Source of the DNA: a virus
IMG/VR virus record: IMGVR_UViG_3300006749_000090
Location: 1-27,714 of that record
Direction: 5' to 3' (one strand)
DNA length: 27,714 nucleotides
The position numbers were made by a program, and so were the translations under genes. Positions 2,637-26,392 of this stretch are shown piece after piece. How positions within the stretch are numbered: position 1 is the first letter of the stretch; every line of letters begins with the position of its first letter. Under the pieces are notes generated by a model. That model worked only from the letters and a program-made list of their open reading frames with translations, made no database searches and was not told where the DNA came from.

Positions 2637-5600
2637 TCAACTAACCGAACTATGCTCCTTGGACTTTCTCTTTCTCTTTGGGTAGTCCTCCGGCTTCTCA
2701 GGGTCCTGCTCAGGACGCTCCTTCATGTCGTAGTCTGGAAGGGTGGCCTCGTTGTTCAAAGTGGTCGGACCACGTGGGCTGGATATATCGGAGCCTACAT
2801 CTATACCGAGTCCCTTGCCACCGCTCATGGGATAGTGCCCGCTCCCTGCCTTCTCCAAAGCATCGAGTGCCCTCTCTATGAGTTCTATGGCCTTGACCAT
2901 CTTCGGCTTGAGGAGGATGTTCGGGTCCTTCTTCGGCTTGAGCACGCCACCGCTCTGGTTGTCTATTCTTCGCGCACGCTCATCGGTCATGCCCTCGTTC
3001 GCTCTCTCCTCATCCCAATCGGACTTGTCCGAGTCATCGGTATCGCTCGTCTTCTTCTTCGCGTATGCCTTGAGCATCTCATCGAAGGCTGGCATCCAAT
3101 AACTCTCAAGGCTCTTCGCTAGGACAAGCGTGTAGTCCCTCTCCTTGAGGCTGCTCAATGCGGAGCGTGGATTCTCCACCCTGTCATCAACGATGTCGTA
3201 CTTGAGTATGTCATGGTCGAAGTGCAGGATGAACATATCCTCGTCTATCTCCATGCCGAAGGGGATGTGGAATTCATCGTCCGATTTTGTCATGAGCACC
3301 CACTTAGGATGTTTTTCCTCACCGCGCATATACGTTGACTTTGCATCCCTCAGCAGTATCTTCTTGTCCTTGTTCTCGCTCTGGATGAACTTGATTGCCT
3401 CCTCAAGACCGTCCTCGTCGGTTATCCTGAGTGTGGATGGTCCGGGTATGAACACGTTCTCACGGCTGTCGAACTGCCCCCTGAGCAGTTTCATGCGCTC
3501 CCTCACATCCATGTCGGTGACGTCAGTGCCGTCATACTCCATGATGTCGAAGATGTGTATGCCGTCCGAGTTCTTCACAGCGTCAACGACGTAGTTCCTC
3601 TTGCCTAGTTTTCTGAGGCACTTGGACATCTCGGAGGATATAGACACGCTCTCGTTGTCATCGTCCTTGACTGATACGTACGTGCCTTTCCTCGTGACCT
3701 TGACTCTGTTTCCGTCCTCCATGACCGAGACAGCCCACTCACCTGTGAATCCACGTAGTTCCTCTATGTCACCATACTCAAACACCTTGTGATAGGGCTC
3801 TATCAAGGGCATCTCGCTCGGTAGGGCCTTGGAGACATCTAGCAAGTCCGATTCACCGAGTTGCCCGGTGTTCACGTCGAAGTTGCTTGATGACCTCTCA
3901 AAGTCAACACCACCTGCTGTCTGCGCCATCTGCTGCGCGGTGTCGAACGTCTGCTGACCATGAAGGGAGAGCAGGGTCTCCTCGGATACTGGTAGTAGGC
4001 TCATCCTCTCAGTCTCTCTCCCGAACTGAGGGTTCCCGTCCATGTCCGCGAAGGCCCTTACCGTGGGTGTGCCGGTCATGCTCCCATGGTGGTAAGCAAG
4101 ACCGCTGCTGGAGTAGTACAGGTTGGGGGTCGCCCCGTTGACCGAGAGGATTGAGTCTATCGGTGTGTCCATACTCTGTATTGACATCGGATTCAACACC
4201 TCTTCCTGACTGAGAGTGTCCCTCATCGTATCGGGCGGCAGAGCACCGGCATCGAATGAGATTAACTGCGAGAGCAGTCTCTTACTCTTGTTCCTCTGTC
4301 TCTGCTCCAGAAGAGGCTCCCTCCCTGAGCCTTTTGCTGCTCTACCGAGACCGGGCTCGACCTTCATTCTATGGTGCTTCAAACCCAAGGACTCCATCAG
4401 CCCCTTCGTATCGAAGCGAAGCAGGTTGTTCAAACCCTGCAACTCGGTGTGCAGGGGATGTGACCTATCTCCCTCGGTTTCGCTGAGCATGTGGGAAACT
4501 ATGTCATCGTGACTCTCACCTACGTTCTTGTAGGACTCGGTGAAGCCGTCGTCAACTTCAGAGTTCACGAGAGAGGAGAGCGTGGTGACCTTGGTGGCCC
4601 CTGAGTCTATGGCCTCCTGCGCCATGCGTAGATGCTCTTCATCTATGGGGAGTCCCAAGTCAGAGAGCAACTCATCTGCTTGTGTGTCTTGGTCTATCAC
4701 CGGCAAATCATCGTTCATGATGATATGAGCGAGCATTGGTAAGTATCTCTGCTTGTCATTAGCGGTGACCACCTTCTGCTCCTCTGATATACCATCAGCG
4801 AGGGTCGTCGCTCCATGTGAGTCATGGCTCATGTGAAGGGACATAATCTCCGCATCATGGAGGGCCGCTGAGGTGTTTATCAGGAACTGGGAGACTCCGA
4901 CTACCTCGGGGTTGAATGCGTCTGGGTCTTTCTCGACGTATCCGGGTATGATGACCTCCTTCGCTATCTTCTCTATGGCGAGCATGTCATTCATCTTCCT
5001 CACATCAGGCTCGGAGGTCCTGCCGCTGCTGAAGTTGTGGTAGGTGTAGTTGTCCTTGATACTCTTTGCCTTCATCTGTAGGATGGAGTTCTTGTACTCC
5101 TTCAACTGGTCACGGAGTTGCATCCTCCTCGACTCAAGGGATGATACTACGGAGGGTATGGGCCTCTCCTTCTCGTACTCGCTCCTGATTGAGTCCTCAA
5201 GATTGTAAATCTCGTCTTCCAACTGGTCCATGTCCTGTAGGAGCATCTCGTTCTCGCCCTTAATGGGGACGGAGGCCAAGTTTCCAGTGTAGGCCAGTTC
5301 GATGAGTTCCTCCATGGACTCTATGTTTGGATGCATGGGTGACAGGCCAGCAACCACCTCATCGAACGAGAACATCCTCTTCGATGGTCCGAGAGTCACC
5401 TTGCCTGTGTCATCCCTGCTGCCAACGACGTGGAAGCCACCCTTGCCCAATATGTGTCTATAGTGATGAGAGGCATTCGCCGCCACATGGGTGTCACTAA
5501 TTTGGGAGCGTGATGCTCCTGCATGCTTACCCCAGTCTGATGTAGGGCCATTGTGCTGGTTCTCATAAATATGACGTGACATCAACAATGAGATGTCCTT

Positions 5601-7715
5601 CTTCTTCTCATCATCCAACTCGTGCTCCAATCTCTTCGTGAGTCCGGGTGTGATGCTGTGTTGTACGTGGTTTGCCTTCTGACCTAGATATGCGCCTTGC
5701 GTTCTATCGAAGGGAGTCATAATTTGGTTTGCCGTGTATGCATGAGCCTGTCCGGTCGCTTTGTGATGCCTCGTTATTGGTGATAAAATTCCCATCAAAC
5801 CACGATTCATGTCATATCCGCTTGGTTCCATGGTGCCCATGAGTGAGTTCTTATCATCGCCAATCTGACCGAGGAGAGCGAATAGTGCCTCCAAGTGAGT
5901 TGAGTCGCTGAGGCCAAGGTTCCCTCTCATGTAGGGTCTGCTCCAATGGGACTGACCGCCGAGGTGGATGCCGTTCGACTTGATGTAGTGCCTCTTCTCT
6001 TTGTCCGTTAACTTGCTTGAGGTCGGTCCTATGGTGGAGTTAAACGCAGTCAGTGCATTGCCTATCTCCGCTATCCTCGGTGATATGTATTGTGAGTCTG
6101 CTATGACCCCACTCAAACCCTGCAACTCATCCTCCTCAAAGTATGGATTCTCCTTCTCTGCCTTGAGCAACTCGCTTATCGGATGGGACTTCTCAGTGTC
6201 TATGAAGTCGTAGAAGTCCTCAGTAGTCACGCTGCCGTCCGGTTTGTTGTATCCCAACTCGTCCTCAAGAGCCCTCAAAGCGTAGAGCAGTGGCTCCTTT
6301 CCTTCTTGATTAGGTGACTCCCTCATGAGGCTCTTTAGTTTCTTCCTGTTCTCAGGCCCGTAGATTGGTAGTCTCTTCAAGGTCTCACCTTCACCCTCAA
6401 ACAACCCAAGTCGCTCGTTTATCCCCGACAGGAATTTGTCTCTCAACGTGCCATGCTCGGGGTCATTGATTGAGTTCAGGGCATTCATCATGGCTGTCGA
6501 GTCGAATGGTGCGCTCTCCTGTGTCTCCTTGTGCCTGTGCATGTTCGGTATTGAGCGATGTGACTGTCCCACCACCCAGTTCAACTCAGGCGCTGCCCTC
6601 ATCATCATGTTTCTCTTGAACCTACTCAGAGGCACCTCATGACCGTCTGAAAGTTTGACGTTGTACTCCTCCGGGTTTGTCGATGAGTTCTCCGCCAAGT
6701 GCTCTATCACCTTGGTTCTCTCAGTTGGGTCCAACCACTCAAGGCCCATGTGATAACCAAGCCATCCTAGTTTATGCGGGTGCTTGACCGTCACACTCTC
6801 CATGGTATCGCTTCCATATGTGTCTTCCATCATCGCTTGAATGTCCTCTTCCTTGAGTCCTGCTTGTGTGAGTTGCTCACGCACCTTCACCTTCTCATCG
6901 TAGTTGGGTAATCCCACCTCATCTATTGTCTGCTCAAAGACGTCGTTCTGACCGCTCCATAGTTTGGCGGCATCATCGAAGTGGGCCTCCCTCACATCAC
7001 GCTCAGTTCCTCCTTCTTTCATGATGGAGTCAACGGTGCTCATGTTGTTATTCCTCCACTTCTGATATGCCCTCTCATACAACTCGTCTTCGTGGGACGC
7101 ACCACCCTTGCCCTTGCTCAATGGACCGAGGAAAAGATGCCTCTTGTCTCCCTCTTGACCGATGCCCGATATGACGGGATTGTCCTTGTAGTCTGTTTCA
7201 TGTGCCCTCTCGGACTCAGCCCAAGAGCGTGCAGGTGAGTTTTCCTCGTCGTCAGGTAGGTAGTAGTCCCTGAGCATCTCGATGAAAGCAGGATACCCAG
7301 TTCCGGGGTGCTTCATGAGAAGTGGGTGCACGTCCTTGGACCAAGGGTGGTTGTCAGTCTGACTCTGCTGCTCTATCCTCTCAATCTCATCACCGGGTGC
7401 GCGACTCGTGAGTTCGGGCCACTTTGAGTGCATGATGTTGAAGTCGTTCCCATGTGAGAATCTTCCAGTCAACCTGTGCTTGGCTCTTTCAAGCCCTATG
7501 GTGCGTGTGGCAGTCTTGTCTGCACTTTTCAAAACAACCTCCAACAAGGGTGTGAATACGTCATCCCCTATCTTGATGCCCTTGTGTAGAAGGTTGCTCT
7601 CAGCCAGCAGGTACTGCTCCCTCTCGTAGTCAAAGTCGCTCTGGGAGAGCACTGACTTCAGGAGTTCATTCCGGGCCTGTGTGAATATCTCGACGTCATC
7701 CTGCTGCAAGGCATT
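2637..7715 (-). CDS. giant presumptive virion protein with degenerate DNA-ligase-like domain
   Basis: About 1693 aa, read from a GTG at 7718 that overlaps the preceding stop as GTGA; GGAGGG lies 2 bases upstream. I do not recognise residues 1-1280, which are hydrophilic and rich in His, Asp and Ser; residues ~825-890 are a probable coiled coil. Residues ~1288-1480 follow the adenylation domain of ATP-dependent DNA ligases in order: MPLIEP..., GEWAV, MEDGNR (motif I), FDIMEYDGTDVTDMDVRERM (motif IIIa region), KKILLRD (motif IV), and KWVLMTK (motif V). The nucleophile Lys is Met1333 and motif IV is altered (Lys1453 for Glu, Arg1457 for Lys), so ligase activity is unlikely. The C-terminus is charged and low in complexity. 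It sits between small head genes and the protease, which suggests a head-associated or internal virion protein; this is inference. Confidence 0.75.
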   Translation of the reverse strand, partial: NALQQDDVEIFTQARNELLKSVLSQSDFDYEREQYLLAESNLLHKGIKIGDDVFTPLLEVVLKSADKTATRTIGLERAKHRLTGRFSHGNDFNIMHSKWPELTSRAPGDEIERIEQQSQTDNHPWSKDVHPLLMKHPGTGYPAFIEMLRDYYLPDDEENSPARSWAESERAHETDYKDNPVISGIGQEGDKRHLFLGPLSKGKGGASHEDELYERAYQKWRNNNMSTVDSIMKEGGTERDVREAHFDDAAKLWSGQNDVFEQTIDEVGLPNYDEKVKVREQLTQAGLKEEDIQAMMEDTYGSDTMESVTVKHPHKLGWLGYHMGLEWLDPTERTKVIEHLAENSSTNPEEYNVKLSDGHEVPLSRFKRNMMMRAAPELNWVVGQSHRSIPNMHRHKETQESAPFDSTAMMNALNSINDPEHGTLRDKFLSGINERLGLFEGEGETLKRLPIYGPENRKKLKSLMRESPNQEGKEPLLYALRALEDELGYNKPDGSVTTEDFYDFIDTEKSHPISELLKAEKENPYFEEDELQGLSGVIADSQYISPRIAEIGNALTAFNSTIGPTSSKLTDKEKRHYIKSNGIHLGGQSHWSRPYMRGNLGLSDSTHLEALFALLGQIGDDKNSLMGTMEPSGYDMNRGLMGILSPITRHHKATGQAHAYTANQIMTPFDRTQGAYLGQKANHVQHSITPGLTKRLEHELDDEKKKDISLLMSRHIYENQHNGPTSDWGKHAGASRSQISDTHVAANASHHYRHILGKGGFHVVGSRDDTGKVTLGPSKRMFSFDEVVAGLSPMHPNIESMEELIELAYTGNLASVPIKGENEMLLQDMDQLEDEIYNLEDSIRSEYEKERPIPSVVSSLESRRMQLRDQLKEYKNSILQMKAKSIKDNYTYHNFSSGRTSEPDVRKMNDMLAIEKIAKEVIIPGYVEKDPDAFNPEVVGVSQFLINTSAALHDAEIMSLHMSHDSHGATTLADGISEEQKVVTANDKQRYLPMLAHIIMNDDLPVIDQDTQADELLSDLGLPIDEEHLRMAQEAIDSGATKVTTLSSLVNSEVDDGFTESYKNVGESHDDIVSHMLSETEGDRSHPLHTELQGLNNLLRFDTKGLMESLGLKHHRMKVEPGLGRAAKGSGREPLLEQRQRNKSKRLLSQLISFDAGALPPDTMRDTLSQEEVLNPMSIQSMDTPIDSILSVNGATPNLYYSSSGLAYHHGSMTGTPTVRAFADMDGNPQFGRETERMSLLPVSEETLLSLHGQQTFDTAQQMAQTAGGVDFERSSSNFDVNTGQLGESDLLDVSKALPSEMPLIEPYHKVFEYGDIEELRGFTGEWAVSVMEDGNRVKVTRKGTYVSVKDDDNESVSISSEMSKCLRKLGKRNYVVDAVKNSDGIHIFDIMEYDGTDVTDMDVRERMKLLRGQFDSRENVFIPGPSTLRITDEDGLEEAIKFIQSENKDKKILLRDAKSTYMRGEEKHPKWVLMTKSDDEFHIPFGMEIDEDMFILHFDHDILKYDIVDDRVENPRSALSSLKERDYTLVLAKSLESYWMPAFDEMLKAYAKKKTSDTDDSDKSDWDEERANEGMTDERARRIDNQSGGVLKPKKDPNILLKPKMVKAIELIERALDALEKAGSGHYPMSGGKGLGIDVGSDISSPRGPTTLNNEATLPDYDMKERPEQDPEKPEDYPKRKRKSKEHSSVS

Positions 7716-7876
7716 CACCTCCCTCCGAGGGAGGCTGCTATTCTAGTGGGGCATGCATCGAGGGACTCACCGCTATGGTCTGGGTTCAAGCATCCTGTGG
7801 CGGAGGTTGCACCGCACAATTGACAATTATCTGTCTGTTCTATTCCCTTTATGACTGCAACCCAACTCAACTTCAT
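7715..7876 (-). CDS. 53-aa Cys-rich protein, hidden small gene
   Basis: A frame of 53 codons fills what otherwise looks like a gap. ATG at 7876 overlaps the upstream stop as ATGA and is preceded by GGAGGG. The stop at 7717-7715 overlaps the downstream GTG as GTGA, so both junctions show translational coupling. The product begins MKLSWVAVIKGIEQTDNC and holds Cys18, Cys21, Cys29, His34 and Cys42 in a CxxC-x7-C-x4-H arrangement, consistent with one bound zinc. Function is unknown. Zinc-knuckle proteins recur among its neighbours. Confidence 0.7.
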   Translation of the reverse strand: MKLSWVAVIKGIEQTDNCQLCGATSATGCLNPDHSGESLDACPTRIAASLGGR

Positions 7877-9193: not shown

Positions 9194-10999
9194 TTAAGCG
9201 CCTCTGAGCCTTCTAGCGTCGGAAATTCTCTTCTGATTTTGCTGTGCCATTGTGGCTTGCGGTCCACGTTGCTGCACGCTGCTGATGGGTGAACCTGAAC
9301 CCATACTTGTACGATTTTGCGGAGACGGCATTCCCCTGTTTCTTAGACCGACGCCCTGACCGCCGGGAACTGGTGGTGGGACTGGCATACCGGGTGGACC
9401 TGCACGTGGTGTGCCGGGTGGCATCGCCCCCGGAGGTATGCCCGGTGGCATACCGGGTGGCATACCCGGAGGCATGGGTCTACCCGGAGGCATACCGGGA
9501 GGCATACCGGGAGGCATACCGGGAGGCATACCGGGAGGCATGCCCGGTGGCATACCGGGTTGTGCACCGGGTTGTGGCTCAGGCTGCTTCTGATAGATGA
9601 AGCGAATATCCCTCTCGCTTCCCTCTTCCAGCATCTCAGGCTTGTAGCCGAGCATCATCATGCGCTGTGCGAGATTGACCTCCATCTCATCTCGGCGGAG
9701 TCTGGTTATCTCATCCTCCTCCTCGTTTGGATAGAGAGTGAGTTTCCAGTCCGTTACGCCCATCTCCTTGAGCATGCGCGGGAATAGTACATCTGTGTAC
9801 ACCTTCTGACCGAACTCGACGGCTCTGTTGGTGACGAGAATCTGCATTCCCTCGTTGTTCAGGCCACCGCTCTTGCCGTTGTCTATCATGAATATGTTGC
9901 TGACGCCGTAGAAGGCGGACATGCGTGCGCGTATCTCATCGCGCACAGCGATGTACTGCATCTCTTCCAATGTGTCCATGAACTTGACCCAGTTGACTCC
10001 GCCTCTCCCCGTAGCCGATTCTATGCCGACCTTCGGGATGTAGTGCGGGTCACGCTCCATCTTCTCATCGACGGCCTTCCAGAATGACTTCATGGATTCC
10101 AAGTTGTCAGTGGTGACAGAGATGATTCCCTTGGGCGACCTTCTCTTCTGATATGCGGTGTAGAGATAGTTGTCCATCGCTGTGAGTGTCATAGCCTGTC
10201 GCCAAAGCGTGTTCACAGGGCTCTTGCCGTACAACTTGGATGGATTGTACTTGCTGATGTGTATGACCTCCCCCTCAAGGAAGTACTGGGTCTTGCCGCT
10301 ACCTGCCATGTTCACATAATGCACGTCTTGCATCTTGTTCCCGCAGACCTCGCATGACTCCTCCTGACCGGGATATGCCACTTGGTCACGGTGTATGGGA
10401 CATACCTTGTACCTGCCACCGCGAACACCACGCTTGTCTGAGACGATACGCATGAAGATAGGGTCACCGCGAACGACCTCTTTCACACGGTAGAACAGAA
10501 TCTCGCTAGTCTCGGGGTCAACGTTATACTCCTTGATGAGAATGAGAAAGCCGTCATCCACGACATTCAGGTCGTGCTCCACCTCTTGCAGCACGTGCAT
10601 GAAGGACTGCTCCATTGAGTTGGTCTGTCGTAGCAGCCACTTTGGGTAGATGAGTTGCTCGATTTCAGGCGCTCTCACAGGTCCCTCGCACAACTTGCAC
10701 ACATCCACATTGTCGCTGTGCTCCTCCCCGCACGACGTGCATACGCGTTGGAACCTCTTCTCCCAGTAGTATCCCCTCCTGAATATCTCCTGAGATAGTT
10801 TGGAAACTATGGTTCGTAGAACGAGATTCTCATGCGTCACAGCATAGAGTGCTGGTATGGTGATGCCCTGAGCCATTACTGGTTCCTGTATGCCGGTGGT
10901 GTAGAGCGGCATCGTTGGCTCAGGAGTGCTGCGCCTTCGGAAAGGCTCGGAGAGAGCCGATAGGAAACGAGAGATTCTGCTGCCTTCTTCCTCTGCCAT
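9194..10999 (-). CDS. portal protein with zinc knuckles and collagen-like tail
   Basis: About 601 aa. The portal ring is the gateway for DNA packaging and the head-tail joint. The core ([20 protein letters not shown], then [13 protein letters not shown], then a long helix-rich segment to ~470) matches phage portal patterns, and it follows the large terminase. Two Cys clusters are inserted: Cys88/91/102/105 and Cys201/His204/Cys217/Cys220, both consistent with zinc knuckles. Residues ~480-540 are a PPGM repeat, followed by a basic Ser/Gln-rich end. ATG at 10999 overlaps the upstream TGA by one base and has GAGGG 6 bases before it; a GTG one codon earlier is possible. Confidence 0.85.
9430..9560. 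repeat. 12-bp tandem repeat encoding PPGM
   Basis: Repeats of a 12-bp unit (GGAGGCATACCG on the plus strand), perfect over about 9485-9540 and imperfect to either side. They encode the Pro-Pro-Gly-Met tail of the portal. Such an array can change length by slippage in 4-residue steps without shifting the frame. Confidence 0.9.
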
Positions 11000-12135
11000 C
11001 ACAATCCCTCAGACCATTTTGTTACCGTATCGGCATCTATTCCCCATTCAGCGAGTAGGGCGTCAGACTTGGTTGTATCGTCTGACCAGTTCCTATACTT
11101 GACCACTTTCATCAACTCCTCCTTCCGTACTTTGTCTTCCTCATTCAAATATGCTAGGACGGCTCTCGCTTGAGTTTTCTTCATCTGTAGATGTGGTTCA
11201 AGAGCAGTTAGAAGTTTGCGAATGTCTGCCTTGGAATAGAACTGTAGTCTATGCTGGCTTCTCTGACTGTCCTTGTACACCTTCTGGTCCAGTTGCAGTA
11301 TGCCGCAATCGAGAGTCTTTCGCAGATGCTCGCAATGAGCGCGACCTCTGGTGCCAGTCGCTATGAAACCGGCTCTGGGCTCACCCCTCCCTGTGATGGA
11401 TATGTAGCCGTCTGCATCTAGGAAACCGGCAGCGTATGCGATTGGGTCCTTCAGTATGAGACCGGAGGAGTCTGCCTTGACGAATGTTGACCTGCCTGCT
11501 CCGTCCATGATATCGACCTCCTCCCCGTACATGGAGAGAATCTTCGCTAGTTTGTTGCTGGTCATGCTCTTGGTCGTGAGGTTCTCCTCATGCAGTCTCT
11601 CGTAGATGCCACGTGCTGTCATCGCGCCGTTCTGCTCTAGGTACTCAGATGCCTTCCTCACCATGAGCGCGTCCTTCTCTGATAGACGGTCTATCTGGTG
11701 TAGGGTGTTCTTCCACATCATCTTGGCATCCCTCCTACCTTGCATGGCCTTGACCCAAGCGTCCTTCTCATCATCTCCCCATACATCATCGAACTCCTCA
11801 AGTTTAGCGAGTATCTCCTCTGACATCTCCCACTGCCTGAATGAGCGCAGCAGGTTCACCTTGCGTGTGTCAGCGAACTTCCTGAGTGCCTTCATGTCAC
11901 GCTCGGACGGGGAGAACGCTCTGACTATGCGTGAGTTGTCCTCCAACCAGTCGTGCATCTTGATGGTGTTCTCAAACTCAAGCGCCTTGATTGTCCTGAT
12001 ATCCTGAATCAACTCATCTATGTCGCCCTTCTGGTCCTTGTTGGTTCTCCTGCTCTTTCTCAGACGCTTGACAATATCGTTGGCAGTGCATCCCATATGG
12101 GACTCAAACCATCCGTCTCCCGTCTTTGAGAACAT
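10999..12135 (-). CDS. LAGLIDADG homing endonuclease-like protein with HTH region
   Basis: 378 aa. Residues 235-243 (AAGFLDADG, followed by YISITGR) are a clear single LAGLIDADG motif, and the following ~90 residues fit its alpha-beta DNA-binding fold. With one motif, the enzyme would act as a homodimer. Residues ~150-210 resemble a winged helix (AMTARGIYERLHEE... SNKLAKILSMYG). The N-terminal 140 residues are helical and basic. It sits between large terminase and portal, a position where mobile or packaging-linked nucleases are common. It could be a mobile element or have been recruited for packaging. Upstream, a 20-codon frame in the same phase ends in TGA immediately before the ATG. Confidence 0.8.
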   Translation of the reverse strand: MFSKTGDGWFESHMGCTANDIVKRLRKSRRTNKDQKGDIDELIQDIRTIKALEFENTIKMHDWLEDNSRIVRAFSPSERDMKALRKFADTRKVNLLRSFRQWEMSEEILAKLEEFDDVWGDDEKDAWVKAMQGRRDAKMMWKNTLHQIDRLSEKDALMVRKASEYLEQNGAMTARGIYERLHEENLTTKSMTSNKLAKILSMYGEEVDIMDGAGRSTFVKADSSGLILKDPIAYAAGFLDADGYISITGRGEPRAGFIATGTRGRAHCEHLRKTLDCGILQLDQKVYKDSQRSQHRLQFYSKADIRKLLTALEPHLQMKKTQARAVLAYLNEEDKVRKEELMKVVKYRNWSDDTTKSDALLAEWGIDADTVTKWSEGL

Positions 12136-18932: not shown

Positions 18933-19178
18933 CTATCTTGTTATTCGTGCGTATACAGTGGTTAGTAGTATGAATGAGACGAATACACCAACGAGGTACC
19001 AAGATGTCTCAGCAGATGTCAAATCGTTGCCTTTGAAAAGAAGAATACCTATGCCTACTAGAATTGCGCTAATTAGTTGCACCATAACCATATCGATAAT
19101 CACGCTTCTCTTAGGAGACATGATTTGCATGGAGAGGTCTGCTAGTGGTCGTGGTATGTAATCGGGGCTACCTATCAT
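18933..19178 (-). CDS. small two-TM membrane protein
   Basis: 81 aa from the ATG at 19178, which has GGTGA 5 bases upstream; a GTG at 19187 would add three residues. Two hydrophobic spans (VIIDMVMVQLISAILVGIGI and WYLVGVFVSFILLTTVY) are separated by a short polar loop, with both ends probably on the cytoplasmic side. Size and topology would fit a holin-like protein, but no lysis enzyme is nearby and the label is not proven. It belongs to the same unit as the other membrane proteins at 21017-22586. Confidence 0.7.
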   Translation of the reverse strand: MIGSPDYIPRPLADLSMQIMSPKRSVIIDMVMVQLISAILVGIGILLFKGNDLTSAETSWYLVGVFVSFILLTTVYARITR

Positions 19179-19183
19179 TTCAT

Positions 19184-19816
19184 TCACCTAAATCCGAAGG
19201 CTGAGCGCACAGCGCTGCCGACACCGCTGCCGACTGTCTCAAGCATGGTCGTGTCAGCGAGTGCGCTGTTCAACATGCCCTGCATGAGAGACTGCTGTGA
19301 TAGAGCGATTATCCTGTCGCGCTCCTGCATGGCTACGGTTACAGTCTGCTGTGATATGTTCTGCATGTTGTTCAACTTGGAGATGATGTTCTCCGAGGAT
19401 AGCGTCTGCAAGTCAGAGGGCAGAGAGGCCACATCCAGTGATATGGTGTCATCCTCAATCTTGAATGTGGAGTTCTTTAGGACATTGAGCAGTGAGAAGG
19501 CAGTGATGTTGGCTATCATCTCAACGAAGAGCGGCATGTTCTGCGAGATGATGAACCTGTCAATAGGCTGCATTGTATTCATCATGGCGGAGAGTATCTC
19601 AGCCTCGGACGGTGGAGCGATAGGAGCATTGTACTGGTTCTGCATACCAAGGCCCGAGCCTCCCATCATTCCAGCCATGAACGGATTGGCCTGCTGTGAT
19701 TGCCCCATTGGCATCTGACCCATTGGCAAACCACCTGCGGCTGCCATGCCGCCTGTTGCGGCTCCTAGACCTAGAGTGCTCTGCGTCTGTGCTCCTGTTA
19801 GGTTTATCCCGACCAT
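19184..19816 (-). CDS. 210-aa unknown protein, Gly/Met-rich N-terminus
   Basis: Residues 1-65 are low-complexity Gly/Met/Gln/Ala, probably disordered. Residues 70-130 are hydrophobic helices (PLFVEMIANITAFSLLNVL) and 140-200 a polar helical region, ending in a Gly/Ser-rich tail. Coupled to the previous gene by TAATG. No family is recognised. It could be a virion surface or assembly protein. Confidence 0.6.
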   Translation of the reverse strand: MVGINLTGAQTQSTLGLGAATGGMAAAGGLPMGQMPMGQSQQANPFMAGMMGGSGLGMQNQYNAPIAPPSEAEILSAMMNTMQPIDRFIISQNMPLFVEMIANITAFSLLNVLKNSTFKIEDDTISLDVASLPSDLQTLSSENIISKLNNMQNISQQTVTVAMQERDRIIALSQQSLMQGMLNSALADTTMLETVGSGVGSAVRSAFGFR

Positions 19817-20793
19817 TACTGATTCACCGCCTGTTGCTCAACCGCAGGGGGGATTATTGTTTGAGGCTGCTGGTTCATCATCGCTGTGAAAGCGGGAGTC
19901 GGTTGGGACGCCTCTATAATCTCCTTCTGAAACATCCTCATGTCGAATTGCACGATTGTTATGTCATTGTTCCCTGTCTGCGGATTCGGTATATGCCACA
20001 CGTTGATGCCCTTGGTCTTCTGCGCGTCCTTCTCTATCTCTTGGAAGAATGGCTCGTACTTCTGCACGATTGAAGGTGACGGTGTGGAGTTGCCTGCGAG
20101 GGATGTGACTGGTACAGTGACTAGACTGACACCTCTCTTCATCTTGTCACGGAAGCGACTTGGTTTCAACTCGGCCTCTCTCTCCTCCTCTGCCTCCCAC
20201 TTGCATAGTAGGTGATACAGGTGAAGATGCTCCGGGCAGTATGTTCCTTTGAGGGTCCTACCGCTGGTAACCCCGCTCCTGACTAGGAAAGCCTCAGTCT
20301 GTCCTGAGATTGGATTCTGCCAGTACATCTCCCACAGGCTTCTGCCTGTCTCCTCGTCTGTTATACGTGCGTAGAGATTGTCATACTCTATGAGTTCCTT
20401 GACATTGCAGCCATCCACGACGCATACACCACTGTCCTTGGTGTATCTGTAAGGGCTGCCGAACCATCTTCTAGGGTCGAATATGGACCTCTTCGCCGGT
20501 CTGAGCAACTTGTAGGCCTGCTTGATGTCCTTTCTCCTAGCCTTCCTAGGGTCTGGATGGGTGCTTGGATAGAAGTTGACCTTCGGGACCTCTATGTTCT
20601 TTCTCTGTGCAATCTGCTGCATCTGCTGCTGTGCGACTTGCTGCTCAAGCAGCGCAGCGTGGTTGAACTGCGGGTTTCCCTGCTGTGCCAACGCCATGAT
20701 GGCAGCCTCATTCACATTTGCGAGGGAGGGACGGGGTTGCAGATTTTGCCCAGTCATGGTTCGATACATATTATCGGGAACGTCGAGTACCAT
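19816..20793 (-). CDS. 325-aa unknown protein with treble-clef-like zinc site
   Basis: Residues 45-65 are Gln-rich helix (LEQQVAQQQMQQIAQR). Cys124, Cys129, Cys186 and His189 (CVVDGC... YCPEH) could form a single zinc site around a beta-rich domain (~105-200). The final 60 residues are Gln/Pro-rich. The ATG is preceded by GGGTGAT. No family is recognised. It sits between the AbrB protein and the 210-aa protein, and probably acts with the latter. Confidence 0.62.
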   Translation of the reverse strand: MVLDVPDNMYRTMTGQNLQPRPSLANVNEAAIMALAQQGNPQFNHAALLEQQVAQQQMQQIAQRKNIEVPKVNFYPSTHPDPRKARRKDIKQAYKLLRPAKRSIFDPRRWFGSPYRYTKDSGVCVVDGCNVKELIEYDNLYARITDEETGRSLWEMYWQNPISGQTEAFLVRSGVTSGRTLKGTYCPEHLHLYHLLCKWEAEEEREAELKPSRFRDKMKRGVSLVTVPVTSLAGNSTPSPSIVQKYEPFFQEIEKDAQKTKGINVWHIPNPQTGNNDITIVQFDMRMFQKEIIEASQPTPAFTAMMNQQPQTIIPPAVEQQAVNQ

Positions 20794-20797
20794 CGAA

Positions 20798-21016
20798 TCA
20801 CCCTTGAGGTATCACCTTGATGAACAATTCCCCATTTTCGTCTGAACCCACTTTCCACTCCAGTTTGTCACCCGCTTGGAGTCCAAATTGCGATACTAAC
20901 CACATTGGAACTGTGCATCGCACGCTATTGGAGCCCCCACCTGTTGGCACGAGAGTAGTCTTGCTTCCCCCACGTGCCATGTGCATTCGCACAGGGTCTT
21001 TATTCAAAAAGGTCAC
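20798..21016 (-). CDS. AbrB/MazE-type DNA-binding protein
   Basis: 72 aa. Residues ~20-70 match the swapped-hairpin AbrB fold: VRCTVPMWLVSQFGLQAGDK followed by LEWKV, a Gly turn and LFIKVIP. The phrase TVPxWLVxQxGLxxGDKLEW is typical of archaeal chromatin-associated or transcription regulators. It would bind DNA as a dimer and could regulate viral or host promoters. The GTG at 21016 follows the GTPase stop directly; later ATGs at residues 11 and 13 are alternatives. No toxin partner is adjacent, so an antitoxin role is not indicated. Confidence 0.82.
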   Translation of the reverse strand: MTFLNKDPVRMHMARGGSKTTLVPTGGGSNSVRCTVPMWLVSQFGLQAGDKLEWKVGSDENGELFIKVIPQG

Positions 21017-21724
21017 TCAAGAGGTCAAGAGTTCAATCATGGTGGGTTCGACGTTCCAACCGACTCTAGTAGCCATGAAAGAGCGTTTTGTGGGTATACC
21101 TGCCTTCTGCAATCTGATGAGGTCATCTCGGAAGGGGTCGAATATCTTGTGCTCGCCTATCCTACCTTGAGGCCACAGTCTCGATGCATCCTTGTCGAAG
21201 AATCGGTCTGCCTTGTTGGCAACGAGCATTATCCTCTTCGGAACGTAGTTCTTGCCCTTCCACCTGCTTCTGAGGGTACGATACCTGTATCCCCTGTTTA
21301 TCAGCGTGTCAACTAGGAATTTGAAGCCCGCTATCTGCTCTATGCCGTTGTTCCTGAATGCCCTCTCATCGAACATGTAGACTACAGCCTCGACCTGTCT
21401 CGCAACCATGTCCTCCACCCATAGGTTCCAGAACCTGTCCTCGCCGCCTACATCAGCGGAGTGAACCAGTCTCTTCTCATTCTTCCAGCCAACTCTCTTT
21501 CTAGTGGGCTTAGGCAGCATGTAGTTCATGAGCAACTTGTAGTGCTTCGTCCTCTCGGACTCCGGTATGTCCTCCATCTCACCGGGGGTGGTCATGTAGC
21601 GGTCCAATGTGGTCTTGCCGACCATGCTGGTACCGTAGATGCCCACTTTTCTCGGACGCCACGAGTTGTAGAGGTGCTGCCCCCATAACGCTGCGCCGAC
21701 GAGAGCGCTACCTGCCATCGTCAT
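21017..21724 (-). CDS. Arf/Ras-like small GTPase with N-terminal hydrophobic segment
   Basis: 235 aa. G1/Walker A is residues 31-39 (GTSMVGKTT), G3 is DVGG at 91-94 followed by EDRFWNLW, and G4 is NKAD at 170-173, so nucleotide binding with guanine specificity is likely. DVGGxxxxxxxW is the Arf-type form; the usual catalytic Gln after DVGG is Glu95. Residues 3-20 are hydrophobic and could anchor it in the membrane, an architecture like the SRP receptor beta subunit. The ATG at 21724 overlaps the upstream stop as ATGA and is preferred over an in-frame ATG at 21748. It sits in a cassette with TM proteins. Its role in the virus is unknown. Confidence 0.82.
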   Translation of the reverse strand: MTMAGSALVGAALWGQHLYNSWRPRKVGIYGTSMVGKTTLDRYMTTPGEMEDIPESERTKHYKLLMNYMLPKPTRKRVGWKNEKRLVHSADVGGEDRFWNLWVEDMVARQVEAVVYMFDERAFRNNGIEQIAGFKFLVDTLINRGYRYRTLRSRWKGKNYVPKRIMLVANKADRFFDKDASRLWPQGRIGEHKIFDPFRDDLIRLQKAGIPTKRSFMATRVGWNVEPTMIELLTS

Positions 21725-21984
21725 ACAGGCACCAACCCGATGAGCCATTCACCCAACTCACCGAGTTTGTATACCGACCACTCTACGGTCATGGCCCAGA
21801 CATCCTCACCTGTGTAATGTTGGAAAGCACTGGTGCTCAATGCAGCAGCGGCGCTGAAGATGATTGTCCTCAACCAGCCGACGCCCCATTCATAGGTGTT
21901 GTCGAATGTATTAGCCAAGTGCATGGCTCGGAGTGTTTCCTCGACGGAATCGTCCTTCGGGGTCTTGAAGATGCGTCCCATCAT
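21721..21984 (-). CDS. 87-aa membrane protein
   Basis: Residues ~33-57 (WGVGWLRTIIFSAAAALS...) form one likely transmembrane helix, and the C-terminal 20 residues are an amphipathic or second membrane-contacting helix. ATGA overlaps link it to both the EF-hand protein before it and the GTPase after it, so it is likely made together with them and may be a membrane partner. No family is recognised. GGTGAAGA precedes the start. Confidence 0.7.
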   Translation of the reverse strand: MMGRIFKTPKDDSVEETLRAMHLANTFDNTYEWGVGWLRTIIFSAAAALSTSAFQHYTGEDVWAMTVEWSVYKLGELGEWLIGLVPV

Positions 21985-22586
21985 TCTTCACCGCGACCTT
22001 TCTTGTATCTAAGGTCAGGGGTACCATCCTTCTTCAATGGTGGAGAAAGTTTGTCATCAAGGCTCCTTGGTGCGATGAAGGTGTTGCTGTCGGGGATGTT
22101 GGTAGCCAATGAGTCGAGTCCGAGACTCATGGGACCTGTGGATGTCATGATTTGCGATGATGGTTGGGTTACACTTGATTGTGTGGCAGCCCAAGCCTCC
22201 GGGTTCTGGGAAAACATCGCTAGTTCCCTCTGCAACTGCATTTCCTGTATCCTGAGTTCCATGTCTATCCGACGCTGCTCATGCTCGGACTGTATGCTTC
22301 GGAGGCGCATGTCACGGTCCCTCTGCATGTTCTGCTGGTTGACCCTCTGCATCATGCCCTGCTCAAAGAACATCTTGAACAGGTAGTAAGCGAGCACCTG
22401 AACGGCCAAGGCCGCCATAGAATACGTCATACCATTCACCCAAGAGTCACCTGTAGAACCGGCAGGCAACCAGATGCCCGAGTCGAAGACCCCGACTGCT
22501 ACTCCGATTAGCGCTGACTGCGCCAAAATCAAACCTGTTAATCTCAATTCACTGCTGTCTACTTGTCCGTCTCGATTCCAATCCAT
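21981..22586 (-). CDS. EF-hand/two-TM/coiled-coil membrane protein
   Basis: 201 aa. The N-terminus reads MDWNRDGQVDSSE: Asp2, Asn4, Asp6, Asp10 and Glu13 with Gly7 and Val9 exactly fit a 12-residue calcium-binding EF-hand/dockerin loop. Two transmembrane helices follow (~16-38 and ~48-73), then a Gln/Glu/Arg-rich coiled coil (~74-118) and a Pro/Ser-rich tail. First gene of the unit after the AT-rich gap, so probably first on its transcript; GAGGT lies 7 bases upstream of ATG. A calcium-responsive membrane anchor is a reasonable guess; no family is recognised. Confidence 0.75.
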   Translation of the reverse strand: MDWNRDGQVDSSELRLTGLILAQSALIGVAVGVFDSGIWLPAGSTGDSWVNGMTYSMAALAVQVLAYYLFKMFFEQGMMQRVNQQNMQRDRDMRLRSIQSEHEQRRIDMELRIQEMQLQRELAMFSQNPEAWAATQSSVTQPSSQIMTSTGPMSLGLDSLATNIPDSNTFIAPRSLDDKLSPPLKKDGTPDLRYKKGRGEE

Positions 22587-22733
22587 GTGACTGACCTCGT
22601 GCTAACCCACGTGAGGGGTCACCTTAAGAGTTTTTGAGGCTGTATAGAGGATGTTTACAATATTTCATTATTCATTCTATAAGTAATAATTAATATTATT
22701 GTCATTAAAGGAATAATGGAAACATTGGATTAA
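22587..22733 (-). promoter_or_regulatory. AT-rich intergenic region with probable terminator and promoter
   Basis: The longest non-coding stretch in the window, much richer in A+T than its surroundings. On the minus strand, T-rich runs follow the stop of the 67-aa gene, then a TATA-like TTACTTATAG (22686-22677), then a leader of roughly 70 bases to ATG at 22586. Near the start, 22595-22601 can pair with 22608-22616 (7 bp, two-base bulge, 6-base loop), placing the GAGG ribosome site in the stem. Promoter and hairpin are predictions. Confidence 0.5.
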
Positions 22734-24955: not shown

Positions 24956-25176
24956 CTGTTCCTCACCACCCTGACGAGGCCCGTCTGCCTGCGCATCTTC
25001 GGCCTCAAGTTCCCGCGTGCGAGGTTGCGTGCGTAGCGCTTCTTGGTCTTCCTGTTCTTCGTGGCTCGCGACAGACGCTGCACCTTCGCCGCAGCAAGGC
25101 GTTTAGGGCGATTCTGAATGTACTTTGAGGACTTGATTACCCCAACGCTGACGCCGACCACGGACAATTGACGCAT
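24952..25176 (-). CDS. 74-aa very basic protein
   Basis: Residues 15-74 are dense in Arg and Lys (KRLAAAKVQRLSRATKNRKT and on), suggesting nucleic-acid binding. Its ATG (25176) lies in a palindrome, ACGCATGCGT, that also contains the ATG of the divergent plus-strand gene. No clear ribosome site. It ends by ATGA overlap with the next gene. Confidence 0.62.
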   Translation of the reverse strand: MRQLSVVGVSVGVIKSSKYIQNRPKRLAAAKVQRLSRATKNRKTKKRYARNLARGNLRPKMRRQTGLVRVVRNR

Positions 25177-25552
25177 GCGTTATGCTTTTGTTGTTGTGCT
25201 CATTCCACTCTTCATGCCCCTACCAGCCTTAGTCGCTCCGCTCATAGCGGGAGCGAAGACACTCGGTAGTATGGCTCTACAAGGTCTCGCAGGTCGAGTC
25301 GCACAGACAGGAGTGAGCGCCGCTGCCAAGGAGGGCGCCAAAGCAGTCGCACAGGGAGGCTTGAAGGAAGGCGCCAAAGCAGCAGCGAAGAATGTTAACA
25401 GAAACAAACTCATGAACTTCGCACAAGATGCGGGTAAGCAGCACATGGAGAGGCAGCAGAAAGAGCAGCAGAAGCAGCAGAAGCACTTGGAATCGACGCG
25501 TCAGGCGGCTGAACGCTCACGCGGCGGCACAACGAGCGGGTTCGGCCAGTGA
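25175..25552 (+). CDS. plus-strand 125-aa protein with hydrophobic N-terminus
   Basis: The only plus-strand gene I accept. Residues 3-40 are hydrophobic (YAFVVVLIPLFMPLPALVAP then LIAGAKTLGS), followed by Ala/Lys/Gly amphipathic repeats (AAKEGAKAVAQGGLKEGAKA) and a Gln/Lys-rich helix ending in RSRGGTTSGFGQ. Its codon use (AAG, TTC, AAC) fits its neighbours. The ATG at 25214 (MPLPALVAP) is an alternative start; neither has a clear ribosome site. It overlaps the HMG-CoA lyase-like gene tail-to-tail by 36 bases. Possible membrane-active or virion peptide; unknown. Confidence 0.6.
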   Translation: MRYAFVVVLIPLFMPLPALVAPLIAGAKTLGSMALQGLAGRVAQTGVSAAAKEGAKAVAQGGLKEGAKAAAKNVNRNKLMNFAQDAGKQHMERQQKEQQKQQKHLESTRQAAERSRGGTTSGFGQ

Positions 25553-26392
25553 GTCGGCGTACTCCATTGCAGCCGTCACCTTGGGCCAGTATATATGAGA
25601 ATCAAGCACTATTCCCCTATTGTTGGCCCATTTCATCATTTCCAAGGTTGATATGTTCGCCGTCGGGTCCTCTATGTTGATGCAGCCTCCGAAGTTCGCG
25701 ATGCTGGTGTCGAATTCACGCACACCGAGGTCGTATGCCATGTCAACCCGCCTCCAGACATTGCTGTCACCCTTGTGAAAGTGAACGCCCAATGTGAAAT
25801 CAGGCCTTGAGAAGTGCCTTATCACGCTCTCTACCGCTCTCAGCGTTGATTTTCCATTAGTGTCGGCCAATACAATGGTGCTTGCGACCGTCGAGAGCGA
25901 CTCAACGAGCATCTGCATGCCATTATCTAGGTTATCACCCTCAAATGCGTGTGAGATGTATGCCCTGACGCTTCTCCTATCGCCTCCACGGAGCATCTTG
26001 ACATACTCATCGAGCATCTCACCCATCGAACGACCGAAATTGCGCTCATTGAAGTCGTTATCGAGTGAAATGCAAATGTTGTAATTACTTATGCCTGCAT
26101 TCTTAGCACGTAATAGCCCTTTTCTATTCAGAACGAGCAGGGATAGGGTCACATCCCGGTTCAAGTACCGTTTCGCTACACTTTCACTTTCACGCATGGG
26201 TGTCACTGATGGTGAGACGCAACTACCGACCTCGATATTTCGCAGGCCAGCGTCAATCATCATCTCAAGCAGAATGCACTTGCTCTCAAGGGGAATATGG
26301 TGTGTCAGCACCTGCAAACCATCACGTAGCCCAACATCAGTGATTCGCAGGTGCGACACGATGGTAGGCAGTGATGAATAGCGCTTAAGCAT
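25517..26392 (-). CDS. HMG-CoA lyase-like DRE-TIM metallolyase
   Basis: 291 aa, close to the usual ~300 for the family. The HMG-CoA lyase signature is present in order: DVGLRDGLQ (Arg23, Asp24), IEVGSCVSPSVTPM (Glu54), LADTNGKST, HFH (His204, His206), FGGC (Cys237) and ANISTLEMM (Asn246). These cover the metal ligands (Asp, two His, Asn) and catalytic Arg, His and Cys known from HMG-CoA lyase, so it looks active. That enzyme splits HMG-CoA to acetyl-CoA and acetoacetate. Related lyases and synthases use other substrates, so specificity is unproven. It starts by 8-base overlap with the 62-aa gene. A metabolic gene in this setting is unusual. Confidence 0.85.
   Translation of the reverse strand: MLKRYSSLPTIVSHLRITDVGLRDGLQVLTHHIPLESKCILLEMMIDAGLRNIEVGSCVSPSVTPMRESESVAKRYLNRDVTLSLLVLNRKGLLRAKNAGISNYNICISLDNDFNERNFGRSMGEMLDEYVKMLRGGDRRSVRAYISHAFEGDNLDNGMQMLVESLSTVASTIVLADTNGKSTLRAVESVIRHFSRPDFTLGVHFHKGDSNVWRRVDMAYDLGVREFDTSIANFGGCINIEDPTANISTLEMMKWANNRGIVLDSHIYWPKVTAAMEYADSLAEPARCAAA

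Follow-up and report, generated by a model that had tools for sequence, protein, structure and literature searches.

The locus described here raises the question of what a small GTPase, encoded together with two predicted membrane proteins, might do in a tailed virus of archaea. It lies in a 27.7-kb IMG/VR record (the window, i.e., the whole stretch of DNA analyzed), in which family searches recovered terminase, portal, protease, and HK97-type capsid genes. The capsid protein is 33% identical to Druskaviridae capsids such as that of HVTV-1, and an HMG-CoA-lyase-like gene is located at 25517-26392. The Druskaviridae, including HVTV-1, are the cultured neighbors of the magroviruses (PMC8651126; PMC10768690), and an HMG-CoA-lyase-like accessory gene has been reported for the Aoguangviridae (PMC10768690). 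This capsid kinship and the shared accessory gene, matched to the published magrovirus descriptions, identify the source, as judged from its genes, as a magrovirus (order Magrovirales, Caudoviricetes). Its relatives reach 118 kb, and one of them (G014, 96 kb) is arranged as two opposing transcription blocks. Magrovirus hosts are the Poseidoniales, marine archaea that rank among the most common archaea in surface seawater. Contigs L104, L105, and L106, from GTDB MAGs labeled “Maricaulis,” “Asgard archaeon,” and “Cytophagaceae,” were considered as a source of host genes and rejected; they are short and have the cassette and gene order of magroviruses, so they are probably mis-binned virus contigs.

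Elsewhere in the window, on visual inspection, the C-terminal part of a 1693-aa protein (2637-7718) looks like an ATP-dependent DNA ligase adenylation domain that lacks the lysine of motif I (VMEDGNRV). Between terminase and portal, part of the gene at 10999-12135 is similar to homing endonucleases (HNH endonuclease family phrog_5046, E 3.4e-9; a weak LAGLIDADG match), and HVTV-1 has an annotated HNH endonuclease at the equivalent place. An Ala/Gly-rich ORF of 125 aa with a hydrophobic start (25175-25552, plus strand) runs on the strand opposite to all its neighbors and has matches of similar orientation in two other contigs (L071 and L074).

The three genes of the cassette are as follows:
21981..22586, minus strand: gene A, 201 aa, two predicted transmembrane (TM) helices (about 16-34 and 56-74)
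21721..21984, minus strand: gene B, 87 aa, a single predicted TM helix, sharing a 4-nt ATGA with each of A and C
21017..21724, minus strand: gene C, predicted Arf-like small GTPase, 235 aa from the Met at 21724

An earlier, sequence-only reading had described them as joined by ATGA overlaps, and the coordinates bear this out, with ATGA at 21981-21984 between A and B. The ORF list placed the start of C at 21748 (243 aa), which would overlap B by 28 nt. Relatives of C begin at the equivalent of Met9 (MSMAGS...), that is, at the ATG at 21724 of the window, and the longer listed start is probably wrong judging by this comparison. With the start at 21724, B and C also share an ATGA (21721-21724).

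The fold of C was predicted with AlphaFold2 on 82 homologues; an earlier run with 18 close homologues (pLDDT 48) was set aside. The result was a small-GTPase fold (mean pLDDT 82.2, pTM 0.80), as the sequence-only reading had anticipated. Values dropped to about 50-63 in switch I and at the end of the P-loop, and the active site is therefore not resolved in the model. Foldseek retrieved small GTPases with E-values down to 3.6e-7, which alone do not split Arf from Rab. By the structural aligner, the top ranks were Arl8b (Z 16.1) and the Asgard GerdArfR1 (15.9), followed by Arl1 and Arl6; rows 1 to 9 were all Arf, Arl, or ArfR (Z 16.1 to 14.8), and the best Rab scored 13.7. Sequence libraries gave weak matches only (Roc, E 0.018, best member 8e-4; Pfam Arf PF00025, best family member E 0.13, under the cut-off), PDB sequence searches returned nothing convincing, and PHROGs, NCBIfam, and PADLOC yielded nothing significant for any of the three genes. 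A profile of the viral C did match Asgard GTPases (E 1e-7 per genome); one Asgard MAG alone had 40 Arf-family GTPase matches. Several of the matched proteins (contigs L458, L461, and L462) share D[LM]GGQ..FW.LW with the viral C and are themselves assigned to Pfam Arf, with E-values from 1e-9 to 1e-16, and Asgard Arf-family GTPases with this signature are a possible cellular source family. Profile-profile comparison linked C to Asgard Arf-type proteins at E 2e-7, with scores that do not separate Arf (93.7%) from Asgard Rab-like proteins (93.0%). By its modeled fold and its G1, G3, and G4 motifs, C classifies as a P-loop small GTPase (TRAFAC). Although the profiles do not split Arf from Rab-like, the Arf-first fold ranking and the Asgard Arf links lead us to read it as a predicted divergent Arf-like GTPase, short of strict Arf-family membership. 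The Arf resemblance noted earlier thus stands on the fold ranking, on DxGG with Trp at +7, and on the links to archaeal Arf-family proteins.

The motifs of C are G1 GTSMVGKTT, G3 DVGGE with a Trp at +7, G4 NKAD, and a G5-like MATR. NKAD was found in all 184 C sequences, and K45-T46, D99, and G102 are invariant across 82. In the same 82 sequences G3 reads D-x-[GA]-G, with its Asp, its second Gly, and W110 (the Trp at +7) invariant; the reference spacing in Arf1 is Q71/W78. Switch I carries a long conserved insert, with TPGEM and RTxH invariant, and residue 82 is always a hydroxyl residue (Thr/Ser). The sequence-only reading had remarked on Glu in place of the Gln that follows DVGG and suggested that hydrolysis may be slow or need a partner. 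The Glu is real in this virus, while the residue after DxGG is Q in 45, E in 28, D in 8, and H in 1 of the 82 sequences, having changed at least eight times on the tree. This variation makes the Glu a lineage-specific state of a labile position, in a family that has kept Gln only partly, albeit as the commonest residue, so that the idea of slow hydrolysis comes down to a lineage detail. In MglA group 1 there is a built-in arginine finger, an Arg beside the G2 Thr (PMC4316618). The invariant Arg66-Thr67 of C recalls this arrangement, the candidates for the G2 Thr being T67 and T/S82, in a stretch much of which has pLDDT 50-63. At the N-terminus, residues 9 to 30 are predicted to form a hydrophobic and weakly amphipathic helix (mean moment 0.24, hydrophobicity 0.40), for which the octanol scale made no TM call. 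Family members open with MSM, MVE, or MPD, and the Gly2 that is myristoylated in Arf proteins is absent in most, as it is in many Arls and ArfRs.

The predicted TM helices of A and B agree with the membrane setting originally proposed. B has a highly conserved N-terminus of the MGRIFKTP type and a Trp-rich C-terminus. Beyond its TM helices, A appears by inspection to be a long charged helical stretch followed by a basic tail. Two features previously ascribed to A were not borne out. Its N-terminal EF-hand-like loop, DWNRDGQVDSSE, was present only in the window, in L001-L005, and in close kin; it scored 12.3 bits versus a cut-off of 25.9, and the entering helix is absent, so the EF-hand was rejected as a trait of the family. 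The putative coiled coil gained no support from a simple periodicity test. No cellular match to A or B was found in the family libraries.

Using C as bait, all three genes were found in 182 of 186 loci, and the other four were cut by the contig end; these are loci rather than independent genomes, with some contigs fetched twice. An adjacency filter was passed by 180 of the 186, two of the failures arising only from the longest-ORF start of C. This frequency excludes chance association. With terminase as bait, the cassette was present in 28/28 loci having 9.5 kb upstream, so the two baits agree that the three genes travel together, and the cassette is universal in the sampled magroviruses. Between the window and L106, the GTPase is 56% identical and the terminase 52%. 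Outside the magroviruses the picture changes. C was absent from eight Druskaviridae-like records, and the Druskaviridae records tested share capsid, portal, and protease with magroviruses yet are devoid of the A-B-C block. G045, a distinct relative matched in portal and capsid, also had neither C nor its neighbor genes. Most records retrieved with capsid as bait that have no GTPase stop before the place of the cassette, and one (G042) ends right at TerL. No match was found by tblastn of C in phage and plasmid collections (without the named magrovirus records OR863078 and ON649702), in agreement with the earlier statement that no such set was known from tailed archaeal viruses. A literature search, which missed two key magrovirus papers, found none naming both magrovirus and GTPase. 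The A-B-C cassette is apparently an undescribed magrovirus module, in which a GTPase fold of known type stands in a new context.

The cassette block heads the terminase-portal-protease-capsid series. Downstream of C are the following genes:
20798..21016, minus strand: AbrB/MazE-like small protein, directly after C (MazE_antitoxin, E 0.0015, below the cut-off)
19816..20793, minus strand: 325-aa protein, syntenic in 186/186 loci, no family match
19184..19816, minus strand: 210-aa protein, syntenic in 186/186 loci
18933..19187, minus strand: 84-aa protein (84TM), two strongly hydrophobic helices, holin-sized, syntenic in 185/186 loci

A gene for a 224-aa protein is likewise syntenic (185-186 of 186 loci). 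The AbrB-like gene was found in only 104 of 186 loci and is thus an accessory of the block and not part of its core. In G014, a single strand block running from about 54 kb round to 13 kb holds the structural genes, with the cassette inside, and its strand and gene content suggest a late timing of the cassette. Within this late block, A, B, and 84TM alone are convincing as TM proteins, the remaining hits being antisense ORFs or weak single segments of other proteins. No endolysin-like domain was found in ten large late proteins.

The intergenic gap directly upstream of A contains one more element:
about 22656..22730, no strand assigned: AT-rich imperfect inverted repeat

The AT fraction of this gap is 0.70 versus 0.54, and the folding z-score averages -2.1 across 137 regions upstream of A versus -0.55 upstream of C. 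By a strict score, a repeat was found near the start of A in 38 of 141 loci (about 0.8 expected) and always outscored any other within its 12 kb; in G014 (G014:59497), no ungapped inverted repeat elsewhere in the genome ranks above it by the score applied. The arms vary between lineages, whereas the dyad symmetry is kept, at the same place in many relatives. It could be a transcription control element, an RNA hairpin, or a DNA-processing site. The turning points of the GC skew in G014, near 52 kb and 12 kb, lie away from the repeat and so do not mark it as an origin. The AbrB protein is disfavored as its universal binder, since the clade of the L106/L115 type (e.g., L110 and L128), with no detected AbrB gene, keeps the repeat.

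Several known systems resemble parts of this cassette. Arf and Arl proteins, including the Asgard ArfR (8oum and 8ouk) and Arl8b (8jc5), share with C the fold (Z about 16), DxGG[Q] with Trp at +7, an N-terminal helix directly before strand 1, NKxD, and a G5-like ATR. However, identity is only 16-19%, the switch I of C is about 20 residues longer, the score is below the Pfam Arf cut-off, and C differs also in the mostly missing Gly2, the weakly amphipathic N-helix, the variable catalytic Gln, and the two viral membrane partners. The nearest viral folds in BFVD are Rab/Ras proteins of giant viruses (mimivirus Rab, 5xc5, among others), like C virus encoded and with a Ras-superfamily fold. Unlike C, they are of the Rab/Ras/Ran type and belong to viruses of eukaryotes, with an identity to C of 8-18% across the best 50 matches, and we know of no A/B partners for them. 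The mimivirus Rab has been proposed to act on membranes (PMC4569851). SRP receptor beta (5ck3) is a membrane-anchored Arf-like GTPase with a membrane partner, with a Z of 13.3, under the Arf scores; its partner is SR-alpha/FtsY, which A and B do not match in family searches. MglA is a prokaryotic small-GTPase switch, with the Arg beside the G2 Thr in group 1, but its G3 is TVPGQ/GTPGQ versus the viral DxGG, and it is regulated by MglB (roadblock). No match to roadblock/MglB (PF03259) was found in 12 long magrovirus records, in a search in which the control genomes were positive, and with the G3 of C being D-x-[GA]-G, its identification as MglA was rejected. Phage holin/lysis cassettes have, as here, small late TM proteins upstream of the packaging genes, including a holin-sized two-TM protein. 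The magrovirus cassette differs in having no known holin or endolysin match and, to our knowledge, holin cassettes contain no GTPase.

We tentatively propose that A-B-C is a late, membrane-bound, GTP-controlled switch module of magroviruses, with egress as its likeliest purpose, a reading to which we give somewhat less than even confidence. The hydrophobic N-terminal helix would dock C at the inner side of the host membrane, next to A, with its two TM helices and long charged cytosolic arm, and B, with one TM helix and the conserved N-terminus presumably cytosolic as well. Bound to GTP, C would hold A and B or bring about their assembly; they would be released or rearranged once the GTP is hydrolyzed. 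As infection ends, the three proteins, with the nearby 84TM, might open or reshape the host membrane and let the virions leave. A review notes that archaea have no peptidoglycan, that egress by endolysin and holin would be ineffective in them, that no holin gene is found in archaeal virus isolates, and that no mechanism has been proposed for complete disruption of the archaeal membrane (PMC4456609). Given the lack of peptidoglycan and of reported holins, and with A, B, and 84TM as the sole convincing late TM proteins, a GTP-switched late membrane complex is a natural candidate for egress. Of the roles first suggested from the sequence, exit is favored over entry solely by genome position and elimination. 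Envelope remodeling found no positive evidence, the virus being tailed, with an HK97-type capsid and no envelope genes seen. Against egress, a late TM protein need not serve lysis.

Other explanations have to be weighed against the same data. A-B-C could instead be a virion or assembly factor: a membrane GTPase complex might tether procapsids or the packaging process to the host membrane, or A and B might enter the virion and aid DNA across the membrane at infection, C serving as the switch for assembly. In nearly every locus the block adjoins the packaging and head genes, as well as those of the 325-, 210-, and 224-aa proteins; this contiguity, the universality of the block, and its terminase-like level of conservation would suit such a core role. 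We nevertheless regard it as unlikely, as the Druskaviridae tested have the same capsid, portal, and protease without the block, which is thus not needed for this head type, and we know of no tailed-virus assembly that uses a small GTPase. Similarly improbable, in our view, is a function in host takeover or superinfection exclusion, with C mimicking an Arf-like GTPase of the host archaeon and, with A and B, diverting a membrane process of the host (surface structures, secretion, vesicles, or cell polarity). The wealth of Arf-family GTPases in some archaea, as in the Asgard MAG above, some with FWxLW after DxGG, and the restriction of the cassette to viruses of one host order would fit a host-specific target; its location in the structural-gene block and not in the replication block, and the lack of cellular matches for A and B in the family libraries, do not. 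Finally, C might be a degenerate, non-hydrolyzing scaffold, in which the nucleotide does no switching and only stabilizes the fold to which A and B are anchored. The changeable catalytic-Gln position and the unusually long switch I could be read in this way, but the invariant G1, G3 Asp, G4, RTxH, and hydroxyl at residue 82 argue for a probably working nucleotide site, and Arg66-Thr67 may be a built-in arginine finger; we consider a mere scaffold very improbable.

A switch module for egress remains our preferred reading. The egress of tailed archaeal viruses is an open question, for which the cassette provides a named, testable candidate. The stronger claim, that magroviruses release their progeny via a dedicated membrane machine run by an Arf-type GTPase, is doubtful at this point; it would represent an egress system of a new kind, and no membrane switch with a small GTPase would have been known from tailed viruses before. 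Either way, Arf-type GTPases, which act in membrane traffic in eukaryotes, would now extend to tailed viruses of non-Asgard archaea.
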